DNA of 64,000 bases from Calditrichota bacterium (GTDB lineage: Bacteria; Zhuqueibacterota; Zhuqueibacteria; Zhuqueibacterales; Geothermadaptataceae), in assembly GCA_008501765.1 (NCBI GenBank), contig QQUE01000012.1, forward strand, positions 124,001 to 188,000, given 5' to 3'. The notes under the pieces are model-generated. The model was given only the letters and a program-made list of their open reading frames with translations, was not told the DNA's origin and did no database searches. Positions 53,285 to 53,837 of this stretch are shown here, piece by piece. Both the position numbers and the translations under genes were made by a program. The first letter of the stretch is position 1. Every line of letters starts with the position of its first letter.

Positions 53285-53837
53285 TCCCATCCTTAAAAAG
53301 GAGGGGACAGCAGCTGAAGCGTCCAGCGAAAGCTGCAGGGGTGGTTAAAAAGAAGATTCAATATTTATGATTAAACGACTGCACAACCTCAAATACCTGG
53401 AAGCAAAAAGAAAAGAACTTCGCAATCAGGCGACTGCTGCTGAAATTCGCCTTTGGAAAGCATTGCAAAAGAGGCAGCTTGCTGGTCGAAAGTTTCGCAG
53501 GCAACATAGCGTGGGTAAATATATCCTTGATTTCTACTGCCCGGCTGAACGGCTGTGTATTGAATTGGATGGAGCACATTACGGTGAGTCAATTCGACTT
53601 GAATATGATGAAAAGCGTACGGCATTTCTTCAATCCATTGGTATTCGTGCGCTACGATTTGAGAATAAGCTCGTGTTTGAAGATATTGAATCTGTATTAA
53701 ATGAAATTCAATTACACTTTAAATAAAGCTGAATTGGAGCGGTAATCTTTTCCGAGAGCGCTTAAGCGATCGTCAACCACCCCTGATTTTTTCGCTTGAC
53801 GCTCCAAAATCTGTCCCCTCCTTTTTTAAGGATGGGA
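53285..53837. mobile_element. DUF559 nuclease element with nested inverted repeats
   Basis: 553 bp. The outer inverted repeat is 26-27 bp with one extra base on the right (53285-53310 and 53811-53837; core GGAGGGGACAG / CTGTCCCCTCC, and CCCATCCTT at the tip). Next inward are different hairpin-capable segments: GCAGCT...AGCTGC at 53310-53336 and GATTTT...AAAATC at 53785-53811. Then the inner repeat AGGGGTGGTT (53337-53346) and AACCACCCCT (53775-53784). The enclosed gene encodes a DUF559 protein. The gene-less element at 28439-28608 has the same plan. Confidence 0.78.
53367..53726 (+). CDS. DUF559 (Vsr-like PD-(D/E)XK nuclease) protein
   Basis: 119 residues, the full normal length of DUF559. 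Visible family motifs are ATAAEIRLWKALQKRQLAGRKFRRQHSVGKYILDFYCPAERLCIELDGAHY, with likely metal-binding Asp55 (LDFYC) and Glu66/Asp68 (IELDG), then DEKRTAFLQSIGIRALRF. The fold is related to the very-short-patch endonuclease Vsr. No signal is present. It is the only gene in the surrounding nested-repeat element, 20 bases inside the left inner repeat. The biological role in such elements is unknown; a nicking role in mobility is an inference. The start is ATG 53367; no strong Shine-Dalgarno is visible. Confidence 0.85.
   Translation: MIKRLHNLKYLEAKRKELRNQATAAEIRLWKALQKRQLAGRKFRRQHSVGKYILDFYCPAERLCIELDGAHYGESIRLEYDEKRTAFLQSIGIRALRFENKLVFEDIESVLNEIQLHFK

Follow-up and report, generated by a model that had tools for sequence, protein, structure and literature searches.

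The window analysed here, a 64,000-nucleotide stretch of a Calditrichota contig, contains a 553-bp unit in which one DUF559 open reading frame (53367–53726, + strand) is enclosed by two repeat arms (53285–53346 and 53775–53837), which raises the question of whether a small nuclease gene and the repeats around it belong together and, if so, what the one would do with the other. The DUF559 family occurs very widely and a structure has been solved for it, but to our knowledge it has no established role, and we know of no enzyme that acts on or spreads intrastrand-triplex repeats of the kind discussed below. The preliminary description of this locus had read the unit as nested inverted repeats around a DUF559 gene. 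Local alignment of the 300-nt flanks of this gene gave an inverted match scoring 68 at best, whereas the highest score among 2,000 shuffled versions of these flanks that preserve dinucleotides was 29, so that this observation proved right in both place and kind. The two arms are inverted repeats of each other with 83% identity over 63 columns.

Three parts make up each arm: a palindrome on the outside, a hairpin further in, and a tail. The left outer palindrome (53285–53307, + strand; TCCCATCCTTAAAAAGGAGGGGA) reads TCCCATCCTT-AAA-AAGGAGGGGA, has a predicted fold of –10.1 kcal/mol and has its inverted-repeat partner in the right arm (53814–53837, reading TCCCATCCTTAAAAAAGGAGGGGA on the – strand). 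What had been described as an outer inverted repeat is therefore on each side itself a palindrome, which would form the hairpin stem of a triplex motif. The inner hairpin has a stem of at most 11 bp that closes on five loop bases (GTCCA, GTCAA or the like), and is located at 53307–53337 in the left arm (+ strand, GTCCA loop) and at 53784–53814 in the right arm (– strand, GTCAA loop). Among 13 copies from the window's genome and related genomes, 10 of the 11 stem pairs have changed on both sides and 90% of the cells pair, with a covariation of 0.775 versus 0.207 after shuffling and at most 0.207 for slid versions of the stem. Because of these compensatory changes, the segments that were earlier called hairpin-capable can be considered genuine hairpins.

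The tail of the left arm (53338–53346, + strand) reads GGGGTGGTT, which is the purine arm of the palindrome (AAGGAGGGG) in mirror image (GGGGAGGAA) with A replaced by T. Its counterpart in the right arm (53775–53783, – strand; AACCACCCC on the + strand) was recovered with the mirror-tail search described below, and both tails point at the gene. Mirroring with A-to-T replacement is the base rule of the antiparallel purine-motif triplex. The arm is therefore a potential intrastrand triplex, and the inner inverted repeat of the preliminary description, while borne out, can be reinterpreted as the putative third strand of such a structure. Judging from the sequence, the inner hairpin appears to be an optional component that sits ahead of this third strand, in the loop between the second and third triplex strands. 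Over 9 nt, both window arms display the hairpin with a purine 3′ arm, followed by a mirror third strand, that characterises PIT/TM repeats, and the A-to-T mirror rule, as judged by eye, also fits the other repeat dialects.

The window's genome carries five DUF559 genes, and each of the other four is also bracketed by inverted repeats that share this plan and differ in sequence. A genome-wide scan yielded 80 loci (in Bacteroidota, Cyanobacteriota, Calditrichota, Spirochaetota and other groups), at which 45% of the DUF559 genes had an inverted-repeat flank score of at least 35, versus 1% of control ORFs in the same loci (Mann-Whitney p = 6e-17). A second set, combining the scan loci with loci of the window's phylum and plasmid-collection records of Pseudomonadota, Deinococcota and Cyanobacteriota, was searched for a hairpin plus mirror tail within 300 nt of the gene, with other ORFs of the same loci as controls. 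Drawn from many phyla, the 114 standalone DUF559 genes had this triplex-type motif in 113 cases, versus 15 of 196 control ORFs, and it was present in both flanks for 64/114 versus 0/196 (Fisher 3e-35), while dinucleotide-shuffled flanks yielded it in 22 of 339 cases. In the arm nearest the gene, the tail pointed towards the gene on 142 flank sides and away from it on 35 by our tally, so that the layout in the window is the canonical one. The preliminary description had reasoned that DUF559 genes without such repeats in relatives would reveal a coincidence; the standalone genes argue against this, and only the DUF559 domains inside longer ORFs mostly lack the motif (9 of 12). The search for repeat-flanked DUF559 genes that it had proposed thus revealed a pairing that is general across phyla, with a repeat sequence that varies by dialect. 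In Winogradskyella and other Flavobacteriaceae (L098, L101, L107, L119), DUF559 is found in open frames of about 440–470 codons, mostly without flanking triplex repeats, and represents a separate architecture.

Loci of Y1 transposases contained the motif in 1 of 16 cases. In related genomes, RAYT-like genes at such loci (L271, L275, L261) have strong inverted-repeat flanks of their own that are unlike the DUF559 arms and serve as a natural positive control. RAYT as the mobiliser of DUF559-type arms was rejected, since the Y1 loci in five genomes lack these arms, with one exception. These counts lend good support to a pairing between DUF559 and triplex-type repeats and, because the same gene-plus-repeat combination recurs in many phyla, the widespread repeats probably have in the DUF559 family the partner that has long been missing.

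Across 81 labelled loci, the tails sort into classes that parallel the protein. FDRQ proteins occur with GGGGTGGGTT or GGGAGGGGTTT tails, FHRQ proteins (with one exception) with GGGGGATG or AGGGGTGT tails, and the tails next to FRRQ/FRCQ proteins are for the most part GGGTGAGG-type, GGGGTGGTT or TAGGGGG(C/T); in terms of dialects, the variable FxRQ residue is D with B/M, H with C/F and R with mostly P/A/Y. On the (poorly resolved) DUF559 protein tree, dialect requires 11 changes versus a mean of 47.4 with shuffled labels, and the B dialect (GGGGTGGGTT), which spans Bacteroidota, Cyanobacteriota, Spirochaetota and the window's genome, requires two. As repeats and gene lie on one piece of DNA, co-inheritance accounts for part of this match, and the match shows that it is the arms, rather than the surrounding host DNA, that stayed with each nuclease lineage. 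In 82 genomes of the window's phylum, repeats and DUF559 are only modestly associated at the whole-genome level (Fisher p = 0.055 with the C dialect and 0.029 with the B dialect), with p = 0.009 when at least four copies of the C dialect are present. In a Neisseria record (L155, about 1997–2591), triplex-type arms follow one another about every 281 bp downstream of a DUF559 gene, as in a possible tandem array.

The protein encoded in the window (119 aa) is a full-length member of PF04480, with 109.6 bits at a curated cut-off of 20.6, and searches of PADLOC, PHROGs and NCBIfam returned weak or sub-cut-off matches only. YcjD/DUF559 proteins have been treated as Vsr-related PD-(D/E)XK nucleases since 2005 (PMC1189080). 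The solved structures nearest to the AlphaFold2 model of the window protein (mean pLDDT 89) are the DUF559 protein 3hrl and the homing endonuclease I-Bth0305I (3r3p; target-normalised TM-score 0.78), with Vsr weaker at rank 7, and a sequence profile search likewise relates the protein to this EDxHD homing endonuclease. Its invariant residues include E26, D55, D68 and D81, which is consistent with an EDxHD/Vsr-type site; profile match and predicted fold mark the gene as that of a putative EDxHD/Vsr-like nuclease. By count, 111 of the 114 family members sampled have the motif D-G-x-x-H, with one of the three exceptions (L112, DGSHH) fitting the motif too. The window protein does not match and reads D-G-A-H-Y at residues 68–72, i.e. 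one residue short before the predicted catalytic His, suggesting that this copy of the nuclease may be impaired or perhaps inactive. The paralogue L001 reads D-G-D-S-H. The ORF that had been called intact is thus an open frame, but intact may not mean active. At L255, L160/L161 and L158, the DUF559 frames extend into the repeat, so that peptides encoded by the repeat, such as LLPSPVGEGPGV or SPSPQPSP, form the C-terminus of the protein.

Comparison of orthologous sites revealed the element to be present in some and absent from others. A same-genus relative (G001) has the same two genes on either side but no copy of the window element in the intergenic region between them, and the DUF559 content of this genome amounts to a weak match in a 276-aa frame. 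One methyltransferase gene carries, at the same site in three plasmids, a repeat pair plus DUF559 (L256, Synechocystis sp. B12), the pair only (L259, Pseudanabaena galeata) or nothing (L260, Planktothrix), and in P. galeata the bare pair is translated in frame within the methyltransferase (PHPLAPSPKGRGG). In plasmids of Synechocystis sp. B12 (L256, 2168–5575; L255, 2313–4837), methyltransferase genes (PglX-like, DUF1156-like) are split by DUF559 elements. The search for empty sites in relatives that had been suggested at the outset therefore delivered presence/absence at the G001 and methyltransferase sites, but no clean site with a target duplication: no exact junction or target-site duplication emerged from the sites compared (E. 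coli nrdA-nrdB, G001 and the methyltransferase gene), whose empty counterparts are too distant. On the Azospirillum plasmids, the element is kept in all close strains, which makes them uninformative on gain or loss, and Picosynechococcus pAQ6 offered no clear empty site.

Copies of the repeats without a gene occur as well. C-dialect arms reach counts of 30 and above in several genomes that belong to the window's class, and the listed neighbours among these arms include inverted pairs 20–30 nt apart. The window's own genome (G000) has gene-less DUF559-type repeat pairs at eight sites (L009, L012–L018), all within MITE elements of about 306 bp. This MITE family (L009, L012–L018; L035–L048) has the ends GCTCTGTTAAAGGAACGG...CTTAAACAGAGCC, and one of its subfamilies captured the gene-less pair. 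With all eight pairs inside one MITE family, their number was not counted as evidence of DUF559 activity and the idea of DUF559-driven copies was dropped for them; it was probably the MITE that did the copying.

The E. coli form of the arm is the intrastrand triplex motif TM_ECO (earlier PIT), described in 2015 by Holder et al. (PMC4666352) and reported there with 23 copies in K-12, an occurrence in >260 genomes and a link to genome instability; that study presents a triplex stable in vitro, limited to the E. coli form, and no in vivo support. In E. coli H240, GGGAGAGGGTTAGGGTGAGGG was found 33 times with no more than 3 mismatches, as singles and inverted pairs, versus 0 in the backwards control. 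A repeat of this type lies 3′ of ycjD, and in K-12 the triplex motif is present on one side of this gene only. Where present in E. coli, ycjD stays at one place, with 3,327 of 5,372 matching genomes keeping both flanks close together; one strain from those without close flanks has other genes beside sapF. Neither at the sampled sites nor in a scan of 5,426 E. coli genomes was a clean repeat gain or empty site seen, the variation corresponding to decay or replacement. An apparent empty site between yhfS and frlR in strain 1190 was in fact a deletion inside the repeat, and one between nrdA and nrdB a replacement involving other repeats. The nrdA-nrdB spacer (L193, L201–L203) varies greatly, with one 40-bp triplex repeat in H240-like strains and other repeats of various lengths elsewhere.

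With a confidence somewhat above even, we favour a REPtron-like unit in which the EDxHD nuclease would act on its own triplex or hairpin ends, cleavage and transposition being steps that we infer. The 553-bp unit of the window would then, as part of this explanation and held with similar confidence, be a complete copy of a nuclease/repeat system whose two parts were previously unlinked. An arm that becomes single-stranded or extruded through replication, transcription or cruciform formation would present a hairpin or triplex that the nuclease recognises; the nuclease would then nick or cut the arm at its foot or close by, and repair or recombination would copy or re-insert the arm or the pair. 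One long-lived nuclease gene per family might in this way serve itself as well as the dispersed gene-less copies, as RAYT does with REPINs. A putative action of the nuclease on the repeats, by which the element would be moved or maintained, is to us the most economical reading. By analogy to RAYT, the preliminary description had already proposed a nuclease acting on its own ends, which fits the anatomy of the arms, the fold, the gene-less pairs and the presence/absence pattern, but sits less well with the shortened motif in the window and the fact that no target-site duplication could be established. Also counting against our preferred explanation are the sampled E. coli sites, which vary by decay or replacement, the fixed place of ycjD with its one-sided motif in K-12, the modest association across genomes, and certain genomes with up to 30 repeats in which no DUF559 gene was detected. 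We consider it evenly balanced whether, more broadly, DUF559/YcjD nucleases are the dedicated enzymes of intrastrand-triplex repeats, with both together constituting mobile elements of one class that spans phyla, whose Vsr-like nuclease would recognise triplex/hairpin ends and read clade dialects via the residues around FxRQ.

Alternatively, the repeats might spread by other means (replication slippage, recombination or another transposase), and DUF559 might be a structure-specific nuclease that resolves or repairs their hairpins or triplexes, an explanation that we deem rather unlikely. It would suit the Vsr-like repair fold of the model, the single conserved locus of ycjD in E. coli, and the persistence of repeats in certain genomes in which no DUF559 gene was detected. 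Moreover, the Caulobacter DUF559 protein VsrA, a predicted mismatch-repair endonuclease, is reported to cause an SOS response in methylase-less cells (PMC12907096). A housekeeping enzyme, however, would have no need to lie between two of its own substrates, matched in orientation and dialect, in one phylum after another, and the presence or absence of the element at orthologous sites likewise argues against such a role.

It is more doubtful still that the nuclease behaves like a homing endonuclease, cutting allelic or paralogous empty sites (e.g. gene-less repeats) so that the gene is copied in by recombination between the flanking arms, with the repeats being the target instead of transposon ends. 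I-Bth0305I is the closest characterised structural relative, and DUF559 in Synechocystis sp. B12 sits exactly where P. galeata has the bare pair, both of which speak for homing; yet the 119 aa of the window protein form one domain only, lacking the extended DNA-binding region of the EDxHD homing enzymes described in PMC3943268, and homing by itself leaves the arrival of the arms at new sites unexplained. That G+C-rich hairpins flank a DUF559 gene by accident of composition is highly improbable, for although a single locus might give that impression and G-rich arms at short lengths (L=7) match the direct rule as well as the mirror rule, chance is refuted by the shuffles, the same-locus controls and the longer mirror matches (109 loci versus 75 with direct matching at 8 nt, and 36 versus 9 at 10 nt).

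The REPtron-like unit that we prefer shares features with several described systems. PIT/TM repeats (PMC4666352) have in common with the DUF559 arms the hairpin and mirror third strand, a TTA-type second loop, and their occurrence as singles and inverted pairs; that study reports that no mobility activities were found around the repeat sites and, in its accessible part, mentions neither ycjD nor a DUF or nuclease. What the present analysis adds to that description is a partner gene, the division into dialects and the inner hairpin. A link between DUF559 and the repeats did not surface in the titles and abstracts of the 14 open-access papers that mention DUF559, a scope that leaves priority uncertain. 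With I-Bth0305I and Vsr, the window protein shares an EDxHD fold as modelled, but the window element is without NUMOD-like extension, intron or intein and is bracketed by repeats. A classical IS or MITE would combine terminal inverted repeats with a target-site duplication; the window unit has inverted repeats, and none of the empty sites compared lay near enough to it in sequence to define a duplication. We call the unit new because neither its enzyme class nor its repeat class belongs to a described mobile-element family.

The working principle, finally, would resemble that of REP/REPIN and RAYT systems (REPtrons; PMC3733652, PMC3116915), in which a single nuclease gene likewise lies between inverted palindromic repeats, gene-less singles and pairs are dispersed, and the dialect is specific to each nuclease clade. 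The DUF559 nuclease is, however, of the PD-(D/E)XK EDxHD type and RAYT of the HUH/Y1 type, the DUF559 arms are triplex-type and the RAYT arms GTAG-tagged, and the Y1 transposases of the same genomes have other repeats. By reading, no GTAG (or CGTC) tag is present at the foot of the window palindromes, and the unit, having neither an HUH nuclease nor this tag, is not a REPtron by membership. An identity with CGTC REPs, which lack a dedicated transposase according to the paper that defines them, was dropped, as the DUF559 flanks are not CGTC repeats. The pairing described here provides the repeats with a candidate enzyme and the nuclease with a candidate substrate, both of which are testable at once in E. 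coli K-12 with ycjD and its 3′ repeat. If the proposed mechanism is true, this would be a nuclease-repeat system like RAYT/REPIN that is built from unrelated parts, with DNA triplex ends instead of simple hairpin ends.
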